Source: Xiphophorus maculatus (lineage: Eukaryota > Chordata > Actinopteri > Cyprinodontiformes > Poeciliidae). From it: DNA of 64,000 nucleotides. The stretch is taken from positions 28,559,213-28,623,212 of the forward strand of contig NC_036453.1 of the NCBI RefSeq assembly GCF_002775205.1, read 5' to 3'. Shown here piece by piece: positions 11,401-64,000 of the stretch. The notes under the pieces were generated by a model that was not told the origin of the DNA, did no database searches, and saw only the letters and a list, made by a program, of their open reading frames with translations. Position 1 is the stretch's first letter; every line of letters starts with the position of its first letter. The position numbers and the translations under genes were made by a program.

Positions 11401-14400
11401 CATTGCTGTTGCCTTGTAAAACTCCAAAGATGGAGTCACTCGATTGTGACTCCATCTAATATTCTCAGGGATTATAAAACTCATGTGAGGATTAAGCTTT
11501 GCTAAATCTATTTATGTATGCAGGTTAAAAAAAACCAAATCGGTTCCGTTTACTGACGTAAATCAACACTGATTCTTTCAAGAACACAGGAAGGTCCAGA
11601 GACCGAATACGACGGTTATCAGAATTTAATGAACAAAAAGGCAACGTGGGACGTTGTCAACATAGCTGCTTTTTTTCTGCATTTGTCTGTTAAATAAGAC
11701 AATCAGTCAAACTCTTCCTTTGATCTTCAGTCTGTTAGGGTAAAATGGAAGATTACAGCCTGCTGAGAAACAACATGCGTTGTGTTGTGGCAACGGACAC
11801 AGGAGACAAGCAGCCAAGTTATTAATAAAATCCGACACTCGGCTGCCTTGTACATTACTCAAACTTTGAGTTTCTTGTGGATCCTCCTTCAGCCGGTGTG
11901 CAGATTTATACATTTACATAAAATGTAGAAAAAGAAAATATAACAAGCTGTTTTATGACCGTATAAACACATGGTCCTGTATCCTGCATGTTCATTTTAT
12001 TTGATGGTACATAAACACCACAAATATTTAGAATTCTTTCCTCGTTTACTGTAAGCACAGTAAAAGTAAATTCAATTAAATGCACAGATGAATATCACTC
12101 TACTTCCAAACTGATTTTGAGACCAAACAGGGACTTCTTCTCGGAAGAAATAATATAATTAAAAAATTTTCTGAACAAAAAAAAAAAAAAAAATTTATCA
12201 TCACATGGGATAGAAACATTTATAGTCATTTTATTTGTTTTTAGGCATGCCTCAATAATAAACCTGCCCTCAATACAAACAGCAGAAGCCGCGGTGTATC
12301 TGGAGGCATTTTCCAGTGACTGACGTTTAAACCAGGCCTGTACAAGAACAATGTTTGACTCAGGAAAGGTCAGTTGTTTCTGCGTTAAAATTGAGGCAAG
12401 AGAATACAGAAAGAAATTGTTGAGGAGCAAGATCAGAAATTAAATGCTCCAATTCAAGTTAGTGAGTTCGAAACTATGCACTGTGCCAAACGTGCGGAAA
12501 AGTGTATAAAATTAGTAACGATTCTTATTGAATCTCACCTCAGTGTTGTTGCTGCAGCTTTGGAGGAGTTCCTGTTAAAAAACAAAACAAAACAAATAAC
12601 ATCAAAGATTTACAATAAAAATTACACATTTATCCTCAGATTTGTGGCACTACGATGCTACAGTAATGTGTTGTTAAATCTACTAATGTGACTATTGGAG
12701 GAACTGTTAAATAATGCAAACTGTTTCTGAATAAACAAAGCCACCAAACACAGCAAATCACTAAAATATGTGACACGTCACGTCACCTTTAACTTCACGA
12801 TTCGCTCCTCATCAGTACGAAGGTCAATCAAGTCGTCAATGTTCACCTCCTCCGGCATGTCGGCCTCCTGACGTCGTCAAATGTTTGCAAAACAGGACAA
12901 GGAGGAAAAGATGTATATGAGGGGCCGTTTAGGACAAAATTTACGTTTTGTCTCTCACACACTACCAAAAAGTCTCGCATACTCCAAAAAAGTAGCCACG
13001 CACACTCCAAAAAATTACGTTTTGTCTCTCACACACTACCAAAAACTCTCGCATACTCCAAAAAAATAGCCTCGCACACTCAAAAATTACTCACGCACAT
13101 TCAAAAAATACTCAAATTGCGTATACACACTACTAAAATGTCACACACACACACACAAACGTTAACTTTCTCGCTCACATACACTACTACCAGCTCGCGC
13201 ACATACACACAAACGTTAACTTTCTCGCACACATACACTGCTAACAGCTCGCACACACACAGACGTTTATCTCTCACATACACAAGACTAAAGTTGAACA
13301 CACACACAGTACTAAGACTCGTTTTATGTATGTGTGAGAGCGAGACTTTTTATGAATGTGTGAGAGTTGTCACGGAAGAGGCGGGGCATAATTTTTGGAT
13401 CAAACTGCGCATGCGTAGATCCTAAACTATAAGTTTCGATTGTTGACTCACTGTATGTTCTATTACTTAGTATATTTGTGCTTTTAAATATATATAGAAC
13501 GTTTAACTTTCTTGTAGATTAAATGTGCTATAGAAATAAATGAATCTGATTGATTGATTAAAAATAGCAAAATTGCTGTAGTACAATCTGTCCACTGGGT
13601 GCCAGTATTACAGGAATTATTAACCGGCGCCAACTAGTGCCGAAGAAGAAAGAGTTTGCTATACCGAACATGGCTAACTCTAATTCGAAACGAGAGAGAA
13701 TTGGTCAGGCAGCTGCCATTTTAAACACCGCTCCGGAACGTAACAGAGATGAGAGTTCTGAATCTACTGTAGCACTGCGGGCAGTCGTTGAATCGTTTAA
13801 TGCGCCTGTCAAAGTGCTGGTTGCCTCCGGAGAAGATAGAATGGTGTTTAAAATGGCAGCTGCCTGACCAATTCTCTCTCGTTTCGAATTAGAGTTAAAC
13901 ATGTTTAATTATTCGAATTAAACACCATTCTATCTTCTCCGGAGGCAACCAGCACTTTGACAGGCGCATTAAACGATTCAACGACTGCCCGCAGTGCTAC
14001 AGTAGATTCAGAACTCTCATCTCTGTTACGTTCCGGAGCGGTGTTTAAAATGGCAGCTGCCTGACCAATTCTCTCTCGTTTCGAATTAGAGTTAGCCATG
14101 TTCGGTATAGCAAACTCTTTCTTCTTCGGCACTAGTTGGCGCCGGTTAATAATTCCTGTAATACTGGCACCCAGTGGACAGATTGTACTACAGCAATTTT
14201 GCTATTTTTAATCAATCAATCAGATTCATTTATTTCTATAGCACATTTAATCTACAAGAAAGTTAAACGTTCTATATATATTTAAAAGCACAAATATACT
14301 AAGTAATAGAACATACAGTGAGTCAACAATCGAAACTTATAGTTTAGGATCTACGCATGCGCAGTTTGATCCAAAAATTATGCCCCGCCTCTTCCGTGAC

Positions 14401-17077
14401 AACTCTCACACATTCAAAAAGAGTCTCGCTCTCACACATTCAAAAAGAGACTGACTCTCACACATTCATAAAAAGTCTCGCTCTCACACATACATAAAAC
14501 GAGTCTTAGTACTGTGTGTGTGTTCAACTTTAGTCTTGTGTATGTGAGAGATAAACGTCTGTGTGTGTGCGAGCTGTTAGCAGTGTATGTGAGCGAGAAA
14601 GTTAACGTTTGTGTGTATGTGCGCGAGCTGGTAGTAGTGTATGTGTGCGAGCTGTTAGCAGTGTATGTGTGCGAGAAAGTTAACGTTTGTGTGTATGTGA
14701 GCGAGCTGATAGTAGTGTATGTGAGCGAGAAAGTTAACGTTTGTGTGTGTGTGTGTGACATTTTAGTAGTGTGTGTATACGCAATTTGAGTATTTTTTGA
14801 ATGTGCGTGAGTAATTTTTGAGTGTGCGTGGCTATTTTTTTGAGTATGCGTGAGTTTTTGGTAGTGTGTGAGAGACAAAATGTAATTTCTTTGAGTATGC
14901 GAGAGTTTTTGGTAGTGTGTGAGAGACAAAACGTAATTTTTTGAGTGTGCGAGGCTATTTTTTTGGAGTATGCGAGAGTTTTTGGTAGTGTGTGAGAGAC
15001 AAAACGTAATTTTTTGGAGTGTGCGTGGCTACTTTTTTGGAGTATGCGAGACTTTTTGGTAGTGTGTGAGAGACAAAACGTAAATTTTGTCCTAAACGGC
15101 CCCTCATAGATGTACGTCAAAGTGAAAGAAACATAGACGGAAAGAATGCAAACATAAAATTCTATTCGTTGCTCTTCCTGCCAACTGCAACACACATCAA
15201 AAAGCTTTTATGCTATTAAATATAACATTTCCAACTTTTGAATCATTCAAACTGCAAATGAAACTTTAATCACTTCTATGTTTCTGGACGTTTCTCAGAT
15301 AAGACCTATTTTGCCTAAATGTTGCTAATGTAGCAAAATAAGACCGTGCTATCGTCATGTTTGTGCATGAGGGAAACGAAGGCCTTCACACACGGTGGAA
15401 GACAAATGTGATGTCCAGGTTAAAGTGAGGTTGTGATTATTGTAATATGTTCTGACATCATTCAGGCATTTAATTCATTAAACAAAACCTGCTAGTTAAA
15501 TTACTTTCTTAAAGAAAATTAATTCATGTTTAACTATTTTCTATTCTTTGACAATATTTTCATGTTCTAAGGAATGAATGAGGACTTTCATCTGGATTTC
15601 CCCTCCCATCTATTGCACTGTACAAATTTATTTTAACTTTTGTCCCCTTCTTGGTTCGGGGGCGTTCAGTTTCTGCCTCAATAAGGTGAGTTTAAGTATC
15701 TAAGTGACGTGTTCACGAGTGAAGACGGTAAGACGGAGCTGAAGATAGATTTGATGAAAACTAAAAACAAGTTTGCATATATTTTAAATAAAGACAACTG
15801 ATTCAATTTTACAGTGTATCCTTTGCGATGACGCCGATGAAGCGCAAAATCCGAAACACTTTGGCCAATCAATGCATTTGTTGTATAGATCTTTCTGTCA
15901 GAGCAGCAGGAACTTTGACCTTTGAACACATCTCTCTTGCTTGAGTCGACTGTCATTTTCTGAGAATCGGCTAAAGTCCTTGTACTGCAAACATCTGTAG
16001 ACCCAGGAGGCGGAATAGTGAAGTTTGCATAATACTGTAACAAAGGCCTGTTCTGCTGAAACAAGCAGCCATTGTACAAGCAGAGAAGCCATCCATCCAC
16101 ACCACTGGACTGAGCTTCTCCATTTGATTGGGATCTTGGCACAAGCAGGACTGCAGTTCTACGGTACACCCAGTCTGTTCTTTGTGGACAAGATTATTTT
16201 TTATTTCTGCAATCAGCGACAATCTCAAACCTCTTTTTGCAAACAGAAACTACTTTTGCACTTTTAGCACACCAGGAAATCAATGCTCAGGCTGCAACGA
16301 TTAAGGAATGCAGGTGCAAAACCTGTTTTGTTCTTTGCTTTATCACTAATCTAAATTCTGTTGCTTGAAAATCTAGTAAATCTGCTTTTGCAACACAAAC
16401 CCATCGAGTTGCATCCAAAAACACCCATTTCTCTGCATCTAGTGATGTGCTCCATCCCCCTGTCACCATCTAGTACACACAGTTTACCTCCTGGGACACT
16501 CCTCTCCTCAGATTCCCTTCCTGTCCTCAGTAAACCCTCAGTTTGTTGTCCCATGATGTCCATGTAAGGACAGAAAGCCCCATGTCAGATACAGATCTAT
16601 GAGAGGGACCCAGCCCTTATACACAGAGTCTGGCCATGTAAGGAGATGCAGCCCCCCCCCCCCCCTCCCCGTCTCCCCTCTGCCCTTTCAACACCTCAGA
16701 GACCACTAGAGCCTTGGGGACTCCCCAAGGCGCCTTAACCCCTTTTATAGCAACTTAATTCTTTAAAACTTATTTTAAGGGACTGCATATTGGATTTATT
16801 GCATTTCTGCACCAGTTCTAATCAAATAGCAAAGTGATAAAGAGGCAGCAGCATGCAGTGGAGCCAAAGCAGCCGCGGGACCCACCTGGCCCCTGTACAG
16901 CTGGTCCAGGCTCTCATCGATCCACTTCTCCAAGTCCAGCCGCCTCTGCAGCTCCTTCCTGTTGTACTTCACTGTGACCCGGGCGTGCCTCTTCGGGATG
17001 TGTCCGCTGAGCTCCAGATCTGATGAAACCGGCTCGTCGTTTTCTTCGGGCGGTGTCCCGCTGCCGTCAGTTGCCAT
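8457..17077 (-). CDS. ppp1r14a: Protein phosphatase 1 regulatory inhibitor subunit 14A (CPI-17-like)
   Basis: Four coding exons join in phase: 16886-17077 (start ATG 17075-17077), 12787-12867, 12539-12571 and 8457-8633 (stop TGA 8457-8459), giving 160 aa. Human CPI-17 has 147. Every junction has AG/GT signals. Exon 1 holds the PP1-inhibitory core KRHARVTVKYNRKELQRRLD followed by LEKWIDESLDQLYRG. T35 in HARVT corresponds to the activating phospho-Thr38 of CPI-17. Exon 2 encodes EADMPEEVNIDDLIDL and exon 4 starts TFIKELVAKLVGVHKQ, both as in this family. When phosphorylated by PKC or ROCK, CPI-17 inhibits myosin light-chain phosphatase in the cytoplasm and raises smooth-muscle contraction. The KRHARVTVKY signature favours subtype A over B or C. 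The C-terminal tail is His/Gln-rich and longer than in mammals. Intron 1 carries the large fold-back element. Confidence 0.9.
9095..9170 (+). repeat. Dispersed repeat, copy 1 (cagctgctcccagttgtaaa)
   Basis: The sequence around 'atcagctgctcccagttgta' and 'ccatggttacacatcataac' recurs with a few differences at 44497-44553. Both copies share the same orientation and the same order of words. One lies in ppp1r14a intron 3 and the other in intergenic DNA upstream of capns1. Family not identified. Confidence 0.55.
9590..9745 (+). pseudogene. Tc1/mariner-like transposase remnant
   Basis: Read on the plus strand, the stretch 'ggtgttggcagcatcattct' followed by gcggggaagtttt encodes a decayed version of the GGSIMLWGCF-like motif of Tc1-type transposases, here reading VGSIILRGSF before a stop. 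Flanking words such as 'gaccctaaccatac' are also typical. The fragment is short and without function. It lies in ppp1r14a intron 3. Confidence 0.45.
9968..10292. repeat. Cluster of five short hairpins
   Basis: Five inverted repeats follow one another: 9968-10007 (12-bp stem with one bulge), 10008-10037 (13-bp perfect stem, 4-nt loop), 10039-10058 (8-bp stem), 10183-10220 (15-bp perfect stem, 8-nt loop) and 10252-10292 (19-bp perfect stem, 3-nt loop). No gene or known transposon explains them. They lie within ppp1r14a intron 3. Confidence 0.85.
11087..11397. mobile_element. Short transposon-like repeat with tgtcatgat/gatcctgaca ends
   Basis: The two ends, ctgtcatgatt at the left and gatcctgacac at the right, are imperfect inverted repeats. 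The purine-rich interior with phrases such as 'aagtccagaaatccaaaaa', 'acacctgggaacaatcaagg' and 'gagacacataaactcaaaat' is typical of a teleost non-autonomous element family that I have seen in fish introns. It contains no intact gene. Confidence 0.5.
12940..13320. repeat. Tandem-repeat block of the left fold-back arm
   Basis: Units of about 60-70 bp built on 'tctctcacacactaccaaaa' plus tcgcatactccaaaaa repeat about twice at 12940-13080. They are followed by a second array built on 'gttaactttctcgctcacat' alternating with cagctcgc at 13155-13260. Reading frames across them are simple SHTHT-type translations and are not genes. Confidence 0.75.
13637..13860 (+). pseudogene. N-terminal ORF fragment in left fold-back arm
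   Basis: The frame begins in the words MPKKKEFAIPNMANSNSKRE and continues about 60 residues to GEDRMVF at the inner edge of the arm, where the palindrome turns. An in-frame ATG (MANSNSKRERIG) lies at 13670. The composition (Asn/Ser, then basic and Ala-rich) looks like the start of a real protein, perhaps the ancestral transposase, but I recognise no domain. It is cut by the arm boundary and ends within ten codons in the loop. Confidence 0.45.
13905..14132 (-). pseudogene. Same N-terminal ORF fragment in right fold-back arm
   Basis: This is the mirror copy of the left-arm frame on the opposite strand. It has the same residues up to MVF and then differs at the loop (FNSNN). The two copies are arranged tail to tail, reading towards the centre. 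The perfect agreement shows the duplication is recent or kept identical by gene conversion. Confidence 0.45.
14410..15090. repeat. Tandem-repeat block of the right fold-back arm (expanded)
   Basis: This is the reverse complement of the left-arm arrays but longer. The ctcacacattcaaaaag units at 14404-14480, the gttaacgtttgtgtgt/gagctgttagcag units at 14565-14750, and at least three to four gagagacaaaacgtaatttt units at 14870-15085 each appear more often than on the left. This accounts for the roughly 255-bp excess of the right arm. Confidence 0.75.
15116..16550. other. ppp1r14a intron 1, proximal part: no gene seen
   Basis: Ordinary intronic sequence between the fold-back element and the CArG-like region. 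A 163-codon minus-strand frame (15678-16169) has no recognisable domain, splice context or family resemblance and is most likely chance. Confidence 0.5.
16560..16750. promoter_or_regulatory. CArG-like cluster in ppp1r14a intron 1
   Basis: CCATGTAAGG occurs twice (16560-16569 and 16634-16643) and CCTTTTATAG once (16741-16750). Each is one base from the SRF consensus CC(A/T)6GG. CPI-17 is a smooth-muscle gene and such genes often carry intronic SRF sites, so an SRF-driven enhancer is plausible but not proven. On the minus strand the last site also reads as a TATA box (TATAAAAG). Confidence 0.3.
16652..16665. repeat. Poly-C tract (14 C)
   Basis: An uninterrupted run of 14 cytosines followed by TCCCC. 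It lies between the CArG-like sites in intron 1 of ppp1r14a. Confidence 0.9.
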
Positions 17078-18813: not shown

Positions 18814-21800
18814 TCATCTCAGCCCGGGTGCAGAGCCCAGCATGGCATCGTCCCTCCACATGAAGTCCTGACGCTCCGCTCTGGCCAGGCTGCTCTCCAC
18901 CGGGTTGTGTCTGTACCCGGGTCTGCCATCGGGACACAGCGTGAGGCTGAGGCGAGCTGTACTGTTGCTGATCTTGAAGAGGCTGTTAGGGCTGAGGAAA
19001 GCATCTCTCTCGCTGCCTCCCAGGTTGTTGACCGCCTCCAAGTCATTGTAGACCGCAATGTCGCTCAGCTGCTTCCTTCCCTCCATCCTCTTTCTTCTCC
19101 GCCTCAGGAAAAAGATGCCTGCGACCAGAACCAGCACCAGGACTGCCAGGAGGCAGGAGATGGTGACGGTGGTGGTGGAGGAGGGCTGGGAGGCTTGGCG
19201 CAAAGCGGGCTTGAAACTGGGTTGAAGTGTGAACTCGCAACTTGGACCCATGAAGCCCTTCGGACACTGGCATACAGGCCCAGTGAAGTGGGTGAAGCAA
19301 GTGCCTCCGTTTTGGCACGGACGAGCCCCGCAGGCATCAGAGCGGATGCTGCAGTTCTTGCCAGTGTACCCTAAGGTACAGGAGCAAGTGTAGTCATTCA
19401 CACCATCCTGGCAGGTTCCAGCATTTTGGCAGGGATTTGAGGTGCAGTCGTCGATGTTGACCTGGCAGTTGGCACCGGTGAAACCTGGCTGACAGCGGCA
19501 CAAGATACTCTGGCCGAGGTCCAAACAGTCACCACCTGAAGAAGAGTGAAACACTCAGCTCAGCATGCAGGAGTAAGGATGAACAAGATGATCATGCTTA
19601 ATAAAAAGAAGCGTGCTCGTTCACTCGTCAGCCACAAGATGTCGCCAGAGAAGACTCTAACGGCGGAACTCACCGTTCAGACAAGGCCTGTTGCTGCAGC
19701 GGTCCAACTTCTTCTCACAGTTGGAGCCGGTGTAGCTGGGAGGGCAGCGGCATGTGTAGCCTCCTGTCATCGTCTCCACGCAGGTTCCGCCATTAAAGCA
19801 GGGACCGTCTGCGCAGGTCATGGCAATGATCTCACAGTTCTTTCCGTAGAACCCCTGTGGACAGGTGCAGGAGTAGTCGTTCTCCAGGTCCTGGAGACAG
19901 ATTATAGATATTAATATTCTGCACTTGCTTTGAGTTCAGTCCGGTAGAAGATTAGCAGAGATCCCCTGGACAATAAGCCTTTGTGAGAGGCAGAGTGCCC
20001 ATTTTCTTTTATGAATTAACTAAAAGTAATCTATACCTCAAGCAACAATGTTGGGGACCACTATGTGATATCTTAATCCCCTTGATCCACAAGCCAAATG
20101 AGACACCGCATCCCTGCAAAGCACACAGGTAGGGCCAATGGTTGTGGACACTTACATTGCAGCTGCCTCCGTTTTTGCAGGGGTTGCTGTCACACTCGTT
20201 GGTTTCCAGCTCACAATTGGTGCCTCCAAAGCCGGGCCGACACGTACAGGTGTAGCTGCCCTGACCCGTGTTGGTGCAGGTGGCCCCGTTGGCGCATGGC
20301 TTGTGGTTGGTGCAGTAGTTGAGGTCCTGGTCGCAGAAGAGGCCCCCCCAGCCCTCCTGACAGTTACACTGCCACGGCTGGCTGCACGTCCCATGGAGAC
20401 AGCCTGGGTAACGCACGCATTCATTACAGGAGGGGCCCTGCCAGCCCATGCGGCATGTACAGCCCCCTGGGGCCTCGCAGTAGCCATGCTTCTCGCTGCA
20501 ATCCGCCGAGCAGATGGCTGGAGAAAGAAAGGGAGGGGAGGAGGTGTGATTACAATGGGCACGCCTTCTCAAACACACACACATATACAGATCCTCCCCC
20601 CGGCCCCACTCTGCCAAGTCTGAACCCACCTTTGTCTCAAACTTCACTGTTGGTTAAGTATTAATCCAAGCAGCTGGCAGGCACACAGCCGAAGAAAGAT
20701 GCTTTCTTTTATGTTCTTTCCATCACACACACACACACACACGCCCGCACCCCCGACCCCCCATCCCCCTCACACACACGCAGCCAAACTGTCACTGTCT
20801 CACACACAAACACACTGCCTCTCAAATCACCTTGAAAAATGTGTCTAAAGGGGGCCACAACTCTTTCTCTTATTGTAAGAGAACAAACGGCAGATGGGAC
20901 ATAATCACCATCATCATCATCACCACCATCATCATCATCAGACTGTACGAGCACAAAAGACCCATTGGCTCTGAAAACTCTGGAGTTTATCTTTAAGCAC
21001 TAAAACTAAAAATACAAAATTTTCCCCCCGCAATATTCAGTCAATTTTGAGACAGACAGTTTGGTCTGTGTTTGAAAACAGGGCACAGCTTCTAGGTATT
21101 TTGCATAACTTTAGAACTTTAACTGCGTTTTGTGTCAGATTCAAAATGGTTAAATCATATGGAAGTTAAAAGACAAGTGAACATCTCGATGCTGGGATCA
21201 GAGCCAGCATGAGACATAAGCAAATAAAGCTGCTGCTCAGGATCCCCAGGCCAGTAGGGGCCCCCCAGGAGCACTTCACTTAATCACACAGCACCATTAA
21301 CGGTGGCCAACTACACTCATGTGAAGCACATAGTTTTACAGTAGCAACTAGGTGAGCTAAGAGCTTTTAAATGTGCTTCAAAAGTTGCTTACCCTCAAAT
21401 GTAAAAGTTTTACTTCCTCAGGAATTCAAATCAATTCATCTAGAAAGTGAATTATTAAATCACTGTAATTATTATTTTAATTATCAATTTGAATAATTAA
21501 TATTTATAATATTATATTAATTGGAAAGGACAATCACTGATTACTGTATAATAATATGAACTGAAATGTGGGCCCCTTATGGCTCCGATTAATTTTTGGC
21601 CGCCTCTGCCTGGGAACTTCATCAGTAATCTCCACTCACGCTCAGAGCAGTAGTTTCCTTTCCAGCCCTCCAGGCAGATGCGGTTGCCCTCCTCGTCGCA
21701 GGTGTAGTGGCCCAGCGTGTCGTCCCTCGGCCTGCAGTAGTCCGCGCAGCCGTCCCCGAAGTAGTACTCGTCGCAGTAGACGTGGTAGGAGTAGCGCAGC

Positions 21801-22652
21801 TCGCTCTGCTCGCCGAAGTGCACGTCCTGGGACCAGTCCTCGCCGATAGCCAGCCTCCTCCTGGTCGCCAGGCGGCTCACCAGGTTATTTTGGTTGTCTG
21901 AGAACAAGAGATGCGATTCGTTTTTTTCTGGTGATAAATAAAGTCATGGAGTAAAAAAAAAAAGAGGAGGAAGAAAAAAGTCCACCTGTGTACTCTGTTG
22001 GAGATTCTGCGTTCCAGGCTTCGATGATCAATGAAAAAGTCCCCTGAAAAGCAAACAAAGTGTTTAATAATTCATATTCTAAAGATGATGGTGTTGGAGC
22101 TTGCACGTTATTATTGAACTATGAGCCATGATATCATTTCGCCCCTTTTCTTTAGATTTGATCGCAGAACTTTTGACTACGAAACCAAGCTGACAATCGA
22201 TTAATTAAAGTAATCCGGCTATCTGCTCGGACAACTGAAATAAAAATAAGCTGAGGCGTCCATGAAATATGACAATCAACAAAGTGTTGAGCTATTTTGG
22301 CTTGGTCAAGTACCTTTAACTGTGTCCAACTACAATCACGTGGTGCAAGTAGGGCGTGGGTTGTAAAGCACTTTCTTCAGAAATCGGTATAAAGCTAAAT
22401 TAAATTATATCTCATGTTTGAGTATTTGTGATTGCTTAATGATTCATGAACACTTTCATACAGGGAGAAAATAACGGATATGAAACTGTCAATAGCCAAT
22501 AAACAATAAACAATATAGGTTGCAACAAATCTTTATTTATTGGAATGAACAAAATTGGAATGAACAATAATTTCATTTGGAATGAAAATTTTTAATTTTC
22601 ATTCCAAAAGAAAATTGGAATGAATGAAATGGCGAGTGATATTTTATTATTA

Positions 22653-29804: not shown

Positions 29805-30055
29805 TTGTGGGGACCATTTTCCTGGCATGTACTACGTTGTGGGGACCCGCTGCTCCTTGTGGGGACCAAAGCCTGGTCCTCACAGGTGAAACGTTGTTTT
29901 TGGGTCAGGGGTTAGATTTAGGACTGAGGTGTGAATTGAGTTTTGGTTAGGGTTAGGTATGTAATGGATAGGGTTGGGTTTAGGCTGTAGAAATTAATGG
30001 AAGTCAATGGAAAGTCCCCACAAAGATAGCCATGCAAACATGTGTCTGGGTATGT
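29805..30055 (+). repeat. Common fish repeat (ttgtggggacc...gggttagggttagg)
   Basis: The phrases 'ccttgtggggaccattttcc', 'ttggttagggttaggtatgt', 'gaagtcaatggaaagtcccc' and acaaagatagcc are typical of an abundant teleost repeat that usually runs into a GT microsatellite, as it does here. Confidence 0.75.
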
Positions 30056-30236
<181 letters not shown>

Positions 30237-30759
30237 TTTTCACTTTGTTTTCTGGTTTCTGCTCTGTTTTGATCACTCCAACCAAAGGTGGAGCATTTCC
30301 TATCAGTTTTACAAGCAGAAAGATTCAAAGTGTCCAAAAAAACTAAAATAAAATAAAATAATCAACTACAAACTGAACTGTAATACAACGATTTATTTTG
30401 CTGAGTTTTACATCTTTACAGAGAGTGTGAACCCAGGATTTGTTTTTCATGTTTTCTGTTATTTATTCAGACATTATTATGCGTCTCATCCTCTGAGAGA
30501 ACAATATGAGTGCAGCTCAAGATAAGCTTCTTCGTTGAGCTGTTCAGTAAACAAAGACACACTCAGCTTGCTTCTGCTGCATGTTATCGCTCAATGTTTC
30601 AGCAAAAAGCTCGGAGATGTTGTTGCTTATGGCGTTACCATGGAAACCAGCATTCTGGTTTACATGGTAAAGCCATGGAAACCATGGCGTGGTTGACCAA
30701 ATGATTGACCAAAAAGTCCATCATTTGAATTTCTCTCTTAAAATGCAACCCACTTCCTC

Positions 30760-62743: not shown

Positions 62744-63763
62744 TTAGCCCACCTTCTGTGGGTTGGTAGCGCGCACGCCCTGCTCGTACGTGATCCGCTG
62801 GCTGATCAGATACTGCGCTGCTTGTGTAGCGGCCGGCGACCCTGTTATTGTAACTTTACGGTTCCGAGTACCTGGAATGAACTCTCCTTTTTTGGAGATC
62901 TGGATGCGGGCTCCTGTCAGCTCCTGGTACTCTACCAGTGTTTTCCCTCCTTTCCCCAAAATGGCACCCACCAGATTCTCGGGCACAGCAATTTCAACCA
63001 CGTCCTTGGCTCCGTCTGCTAACTTTTCTGTTGCCAACAGGGAGGAAGCCATCAATGGGGATGAAGCATTTAGGTAACCATTGGAAGCTCCAGTAGCAGC
63101 TGCTAGTGAGCCCAGGGAGAACCCACCGAGGCCTGTAGCGGGGTGGCCGGCACTGCTGGAGGCATCATTAGCGTAGGAGGCTAATAGGTTAGCTGCAGCA
63201 GCAGCAGCTGGGTTGGCACTAGCTGCCACTGCAGCGAGGACTCCAGAGGCAGCTGCGGGGTTGAGACCCAGGCCCAGGGTGTTAGTGTTGTAGCCGTAGC
63301 TGGCCAGTGTATTCAGGGCTGAGGTGATGGCCAGCAGATCGTTGCCAGAGAAACTGGACATGGCGGCAGGGAAGGCACCCATTCCTGTCAATCCGGCCTG
63401 ACCCAGAAGGCTGGAGGCAGTGGCAGCTGCTGCGGCTGCGTTGGGCAGCACCTCGGCTGTGTTGGCGTAAGGGGAGCCGGTGGGGTTGGAGTTGGCCACT
63501 GGGCCCGAGACGTTGGAGTAGCTGATATTCAGGCAACTGCTGCTCTGAGGGTCCTCCTGGATTTTCTGTACAATGATTTCCACAGCCTTACGGTTCTGTT
63601 CTGGTTCTCCACTGATGGTCACCACCCGCTCCTGCAAGTTGATGCCCTCCGGCTTCTGAGAGAGCTGCACCCAAGCTCCCGACTGCTCCATCACCGCTTT
63701 CACTGTGGCACCACCCTTGCCAATGATCAGCCCAGCGGTACTATTGGGTACAATCAATTTGGC
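62744..63763 (-). CDS. nova2: NOVA-family splicing regulator, last coding exon (partial gene)
   Basis: The exon starts after a clean acceptor (tttctctgcag, AG at 63764-63765) in phase 0 and runs 339 codons to TAA at 62744-62746. KH2 comes first ([20 protein letters not shown], with its GKGG loop), then an Ala-rich linker with [21 protein letters not shown]3 follows near the end ([20 protein letters not shown]...) and the protein ends [12 protein letters not shown] proteins bind YCAY clusters in neuronal pre-mRNA and control alternative splicing in the nucleus. The linker words [12 protein letters not shown] and [15 protein letters not shown] fit NOVA2 more than NOVA1, while [16 protein letters not shown] is shared with NOVA1. 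Upstream exons with KH1 lie beyond the right edge. Confidence 0.88.
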
Positions 63764-64000
63764 CTGCAGAGAAATAGAAAGATTGTGGTAGCAAAAGCAA
63801 GAAATATGAGGAAGATTGCACAGCATTAATGGTAAACAGATAAGAGGAGTTTCTCTAACTGAGTCAGAGTACTACACCAGCCCTCACTCTACTCAGCAGT
63901 TTGTTAATCCCTGGGGTTTAGGCTGCAGCTGCCACACGGCCACATGGTTCTGTCTAGCTATGGAAGACTGCAGGTAAAAATAACCCCATACACTCACATT
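63764..64000 (-). other. nova2 intron
   Basis: Intron preceding the last nova2 exon, with a polypyrimidine tract before the acceptor. No further exon before the window ends. Confidence 0.7.

Follow-up and report, generated by a model that had tools for sequence, protein, structure and literature searches.

A near-perfect palindrome in the Xiphophorus maculatus genome is one copy of a dispersed family of non-autonomous fold-back DNA transposons

The palindromic element and its modules

The window analysed here is a stretch of 64,000 nucleotides of the Xiphophorus maculatus contig NC_036453.1 (positions 28,559,213 to 28,623,212), and all positions below are counted from its first letter. By eye, the minus-strand open frames at 18814-21943 have the look of a Delta-type Notch ligand with EGF repeats and those at 62744-63871 that of a KH-domain protein of the NOVA kind, while a TG microsatellite of 197 bp lies at 30041-30237. 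The element under study occupies 12916-15108 and is a near-perfect palindrome over nearly its whole length. When its halves (969 and 1224 bp) were aligned in inverted orientation, 949 identities and 2 mismatches were found, and the local inverted alignment scored 1424 where none of 56 control positions in the window exceeded 34, which confirms that the palindrome described in a preliminary description of the locus is far beyond chance. The length gap of 255 bp between the halves is made up of four extra stretches (123, 2, 78 and 52 bp), all of them in the right outer arm, so that the earlier assignment of the difference to the tandem-repeat zones holds.

Three pairs of inverted arms compose the structure, at 13323-13851/13918-14446 (529 nt, 99%), 13170-13367/14454-14651 (198 nt, 99%) and 12916-13086/14938-15108 (171 nt, 100%). 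Pairing of the inner arms on one axis, as had been proposed, is borne out by 499 bp with zero mismatches (13353-13851 against 14416-13918), but the centre is not simple, since it holds an extra inverted piece of 63 nt. A fold of the central 1,026 nt, taken as single-stranded DNA, gave a single hairpin of -625 kcal/mol, a value computed without shuffles at that length. The termini read TATGAGGGGCC on the left and GGCCCCTCATA on the right, and the terminal sequence of the element is TATGAGGGGCCGTTTAGGACAAAA. Each boundary lies one base further out than the 12917 and 15107 given before, and what had been taken for flanking octamers is really a 6-bp duplication, GATGTA, adjoining the terminal T/A of the element. 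For the comparison of copies, four modules were defined: the terminus (END, 25 bp), the outer arm with its tandem repeats, the inner arm (IN, 358 bp) and the loop (113 nt), the last two as delimited in the left half of the window copy (Table 1).

Table 1. Coordinates of the parts of the fold-back element in the window
Feature	Position	Strand	Basis or remark
Left 6-bp target-site duplication, GATGTA	12910..12915	.	Sequence; 6/6 in 28 of 29 complete copies
Left terminus, TATGAGGGGCCGTTTAGGACAAAAT	12916..12940	+	Sequence comparison
Left outer arm, tandem-repeat zone (units 74, 54 and ~20 bp)	12941..13371	+	END-to-inner distance 456 bp
Left inner arm IN (358 bp), containing the upstream region and the beginning of exon 1 with its ATG at 13670	13372..13729	+	
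Loop segment, 113 nt, first copy	13730..13842	+	
63-nt piece of the opposite inner arm, 97%	13843..13905	-	Arrangement in window copy only, 1 of 31 mapped elements
Junction of rearranged centre: 12-nt filler, then inverted copy starting at 13918	13906..13926	.	
Loop segment, 113 nt, second, inverted copy	13927..14039	-	
Right inner arm; ATG complement at 14097-14099	14040..14397	-	
Right outer arm, longer tandem-repeat zone (units 26, 24/54/78, 21, 51 and 74 bp)	14398..15083	-	Inner arm to end 711 bp
Right terminus, complement of left terminus	15084..15108	-	
Right 6-bp target-site duplication, GATGTA	15109..15114	.	

A dispersed family with 6-bp target-site duplications

The genome searched comprised 704 Mb in 101 contigs. 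With a 401-base query from the left arm, at least 41 full-length matches of 99-100% identity were obtained from the best 40 of 238 candidate places, which were the ones scored. The terminal 24-mer, allowing up to 2 mismatches, occurs 125 times in forward and 121 times in reverse orientation in the whole genome, whereas its reversed control does not occur at all; the 246 ends thus correspond to about 120 elements. Positions are available for at least 100 exact ends, from C1 to early C11, and the ends with one or two mismatches were counted without positions.

Target-site duplications were scored in 29 distinct complete copies from fetched loci that have both ends under a strict pattern. A perfect 6-bp duplication stands directly outside TATGAGG..CCTCATA in 28 of them, the exception being L038, where 3 of the 6 bases match, and no copy is perfect at 4, 5, 7, 8 or 9 bp. 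Inspection by eye added two further loci with 6/6 (L008 and L054) and two diverged ones with 4/6 (L055 and L056). The duplicated hexamers (the 28 perfect ones and that of L008) are all different, 29 out of 29, which together with their fixed length indicates a mobile family with a broad choice of targets and a fixed 6-bp stagger.

Long perfect palindromes also arise from read chimeras, and an assembly artefact in which a hairpin read was joined to itself had to be weighed. Against it stand the spread of about 120 elements over many contigs, the perfect 6-bp duplications and the unequal lengths of the two outer arms in every element measured (0/25 equal), and because dispersed copies carry perfect duplications the artefact is rejected and in practice excluded; we give it hardly any credence.

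Thirty-one distinct elements with both ends were mapped. The plain form, END-outer arm-IN-loop-IN-outer arm-END, was found in 23 of them, a share that is biased upward and does not stand for the whole family, most of the 31 having been fetched through IN or its reading frame. A single inner arm is kept in L004, L038 and L049, and L047 has one truncated inner arm. In L051 both loop and arm are shortened, the loop consisting of 39-113 and the right inner arm lacking 235-358. The remaining forms are a long one (L048), a diverged relative (L056) and the window copy. The relative, at L056:1789-3537, shares with the family its ends and the beginning of the inner arm but has a different centre; this related fold-back suggests that the family has several lineages. 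Inside the L047 copy lies a second, apparently unrelated fold-back-like insertion (L047:4057-5101), with 258-bp arms of 100% identity that contain short repeats and, by eye, a fragment of a LINE-type open frame between them. On C11 (836452-836484; L057:3453-3485), a relic of 33 bp, consisting of 9 bp of one end and 24 bp of the other after almost complete internal loss, has a perfect CTAACA duplication on both sides.

The outer arms vary freely in length. In the 25 copies in which both were measured, END-to-IN lengths range from 456 to 1061 bp, are equal within an element in no case and show a correlation of r = -0.14. Unequal and uncorrelated lengths of this kind imply that the repeat zones change fast while the inner arms do not, and slippage or unequal exchange could account for the freedom with which the tandem-repeat arms would change length.

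A 59-aa locator query read from the window was also searched against the genome; its sequence crosses the arm-loop junction found in the window copy rather than keeping to the natural exon, whose continuation is seen in L048. Among the at least 150 matches obtained (the best 150 of 166 candidates were scored), 52 span all 59 residues, two of these lying in the window copy itself, and 10 partial ones reach the query end from positions 6-16. A further 23 cover residues 33-59 only, and the others are weak and fall within residues 1-41. The 23 matches may represent a second amplified lineage, a reading extended to 22 of them from L051, the one that was examined.

Taken together, the long inverted arms pairing over nearly the entire element around a short middle (in the window copy and in 23 of the 31 mapped elements), the modular arms with variable internal tandem repeats and the dispersed copies with target-site duplications identify the window palindrome as a member of a recently active family of non-autonomous fold-back DNA transposons with about 120 similar copies. 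Its earlier interpretation as a fold-back transposon whose outer arms are modular and contain tandem repeats is thereby supported by the ends and duplications across the genome and by the variable outer arms. No fold-back family of such a design in fish or other vertebrates was found among the titles and abstract openings listed in searches of the open-licence literature, and the family may already figure in a repeat library under another name.

Agreement of the arms and origin of the fold-back form

The two inner arms were compared over the 358 bp of IN in 29 two-armed copies, gaps being ignored. Within an element they differ on average at 1.41 of 358 positions and are identical in 12 copies, whereas arms of different copies differ at 2.10 of 358 on average, or 0.59%; in a version that counted gaps and included two duplicate loci the values were 2.13 within and 2.81 between. 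So small a difference between copies implies that the family is young.

One explanation for the identity of the arms is that it is maintained mainly by ongoing conversion within each hairpin. Agreement within elements does go beyond that of shuffled right arms, since none of 5000 shuffles among elements gave a sum as low as the observed one, although this result may rest largely on site 194, where 10 of 12 elements have T in both arms. Homogenisation is clear at that one site only. Of the eight shared variants, the remaining seven lie mainly in a single arm, occurring in both arms in 1/5, 2/5 and, five times, 0/2 elements, and of the 24 private variants, each confined to one element, 2 are in both arms and 22 in a single arm. 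Recency, more than ongoing conversion, thus explains the agreement of the arms, and at the young age of the copies it is a sufficient explanation. The view that conversion in progress is the main cause is rejected and considered unlikely; the observations speak for young copies that underwent limited homogenisation at an earlier time rather than for frequent conversion now under way. Of the two possibilities raised in the preliminary description, recent insertion is therefore upheld by the 0.59% difference, while ongoing conversion finds little in its favour.

The long form bears on how the fold-back may have arisen. L048, on C10, measures 5,266 bp and is flanked by the duplication GTTCTT; its inner arms of 1,045 nt are 100% identical and enclose 1,751 nt. 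Read by eye, the arms contain an open first exon (MANSNSKRERIGQAAAILNTILSSPEATSTL...), behind which come a splice-donor-like sequence and a piece resembling an exon that contains an in-frame stop. Three further pieces of exon-like appearance lie in the centre on the minus strand, their phases being compatible; the exon limits are those of this reading. Neither the arm extension nor the centre has a second occurrence in the genome. Protein searches with the L048 exons returned L048 itself and, for exon 3, also one diverged C23 locus at 38%; in local comparison this locus has an exon-3-like piece (40% over 63 positions) and a piece like the end of exon 5 (58% over 24) in the same order. A genome search with the proteins of exons 4-5 returned L048 alone. 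The pieces of L048 look like exons of a gene, and the sole support for a real gene is the C23 locus with two of them kept in order. Pfam searches with the locator peptide and the exon pieces gave no match, nor did a PDB search with exons 3-5. We guess the gene to be a G2E3/HECT-like ligase with a ubiquitin-interacting motif. No open-licence paper joining a DNA transposon, HECT and IS3EU was found, and the titles and abstract openings listed for combinations of HECT domains, ubiquitin ligases and integrases with transposons in teleosts held nothing relevant.

By eye, exon 1 of L048 runs continuously from the inner arm into the loop. The far edge of the loop in the common form is, by contrast, a new junction with the other inner arm, GGAGC|GG|TGTTT; the two corresponding L048 sequences, GGAGCGGCC and AATGGTGTTT, one for each side, show a 2-bp overlap. 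The unbroken exon in L048 and the overlap at the junction of the common form suggest that the long form gave rise to the common one by deletion, a direction read from one long copy. In the window copy the same loop junction is present on both sides, with the 63-nt arm piece and a short filler between them, and this doubled junction points to a later inverted copying event.

A course of events consistent with these forms can be proposed from the sequences. The 5' end of an element with a multi-exon gene, comprising the upstream region and the first exons, would have been duplicated in inverted orientation, the product being a long-armed fold-back such as L048. Loss of internal sequence at the 2-bp GG overlap would then have produced the common form with its 113-nt loop, and this form was amplified. 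For the window copy, one more event of templated repair may have copied loop and arm and so made nearly the entire element palindromic.

Mobilisation, implications and relation to known systems

The occurrence of many members with one exact internal structure implies that copying to new sites took place in the fold-back form. IS3EU elements are described as having TA..TA termini and usually 6-bp duplications, and GingerRoot as similar (PMC10045372); fungal IS3EU elements are given the ends TAYGG..CCRTA and 6-bp duplications (PMC12730594), and zebrafish is listed among the species with IS3EU (PMC4746887). The present family has both features, a 6-bp duplication (28/29 complete copies) and TA..TA termini in the form TATGAGG..CCTCATA, and its terminus departs from the fungal pattern beyond TAT. 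We consider it probable that the family is a recently mobile non-autonomous fold-back DNA transposon moved in trans by a transposase of the IS3EU/GingerRoot type. Such a DDE transposase would act by cut-and-paste and would recognise the termini and possibly the subterminal repeats.

The searches described below found no transposase-encoding copy between these ends, so that the link to IS3EU is drawn from the termini and the length of the duplication. A profile search with PF24764, the rva_4 integrase core, which is presumably tied to IS3EU, gave 68 matches, several of them near-identical copies, among 100 candidates scored. For the matches on C1-C10, no end within 100 kb was seen by eye among the exact ends listed. 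Ten of the loci (L064-L073, with 1.5-kb flanks) contained no terminus except for an 11-mer in L070 that is one base off the end (TATGAGGAGCC at 916) and continues differently, and three wider stretches (L074-L076) contained none, the two 7-mers in L075 being chance-like. At L075:3319-5276 lies an integrase-core (PF24764) element about 1.9 kb long, bordered on one side by a 21-bp minisatellite that L074 shares at 97.6%.

Mobilisation by another superfamily, either one that also makes 6-bp duplications (Dada, Polinton) or one that makes longer ones (P/Galileo, hAT, Mutator), is improbable in our estimation. It draws on the fold-back tandem-repeat arms that arise in the P superfamily, as in Galileo (PMC3688188), on those of Tetris, attributed to Mutator at the suggestion of its authors (PMC4079207), and on duplications of compatible length, 6-7 bp in Dada and 6 bp in Polinton (PMC10045372). 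The 8-10-bp duplication of Mutator, P and hAT was not seen on scoring at 8 and 9 bp, no copy being perfect at either length and 28 of 29 being so at 6, and these superfamilies are rejected. Small RNA genes are the described sites of Dada elements with definable termini, and Dada-U6 and Dada-U1 are described as having no terminal inverted repeats; inverted termini are present in this family and its 29 hexamers all differ, and Dada is likewise rejected.

The same upstream region, in which GCGCATGCG is a putative NRF1 motif, and the same first exon are present in both arms and face inward, so that transcription from either arm would enter its own complement. It may be, although we hold this only tentatively and think it somewhat less likely than otherwise, that this is the first IS3EU/GingerRoot fold-back family, still amplifying in a vertebrate, whose arms carry the upstream region and exon 1 of the progenitor and of which any transcript would be a long hairpin RNA. 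If true, the elements could be both parasites of the transposase and, through this hypothetical RNA, a source of small RNAs silencing it. One genome holds a young series of forms, from the long-armed copy with exons through the common short-loop form and the further deleted loop to the loop-duplicated window copy and the 33-bp relic, and makes the origin and persistence of fold-back structures readable from sequence. The family also indicates that near-perfect palindromes of 2 kb are inherited and mobilised in a vertebrate. The fold-back kind itself is known, and what would be new here is a fold-back element, apparently of IS3EU type, in a vertebrate.

Among teleost elements, Angel comprises short non-autonomous inverted-repeat elements that, like the present family, can fold back, but they measure a few hundred bases and are not known to have tandem-repeat arms. 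Fold-back elements with repeat-bearing arms are already known from Tetris (PMC4079207) and Galileo (PMC3688188). The Foldback-type elements of Drosophila (FB, Tetris) share with the present family long inverted arms with flanking, tandem-repeat and inner domains, a small middle domain and non-autonomous copies, whereas Tetris has 8-10-bp duplications and is assigned to Mutator by its authors (PMC4079207), against 6 bp and TA..TA ends here. In Galileo the terminal arms are likewise long (0.5-1.2 kb) and contain internal tandem repeats, which may hold extra transposase sites (PMC3688188); Galileo has a P-type transposase, whereas the search for a transposase of the present family, made with an integrase core, found none. 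With IS3EU and GingerRoot the family has TA..TA termini and 6-bp duplications in common (PMC10045372), and it differs from them, as far as the accessible descriptions mention neither, in combining these with a fold-back structure and subterminal tandem repeats.
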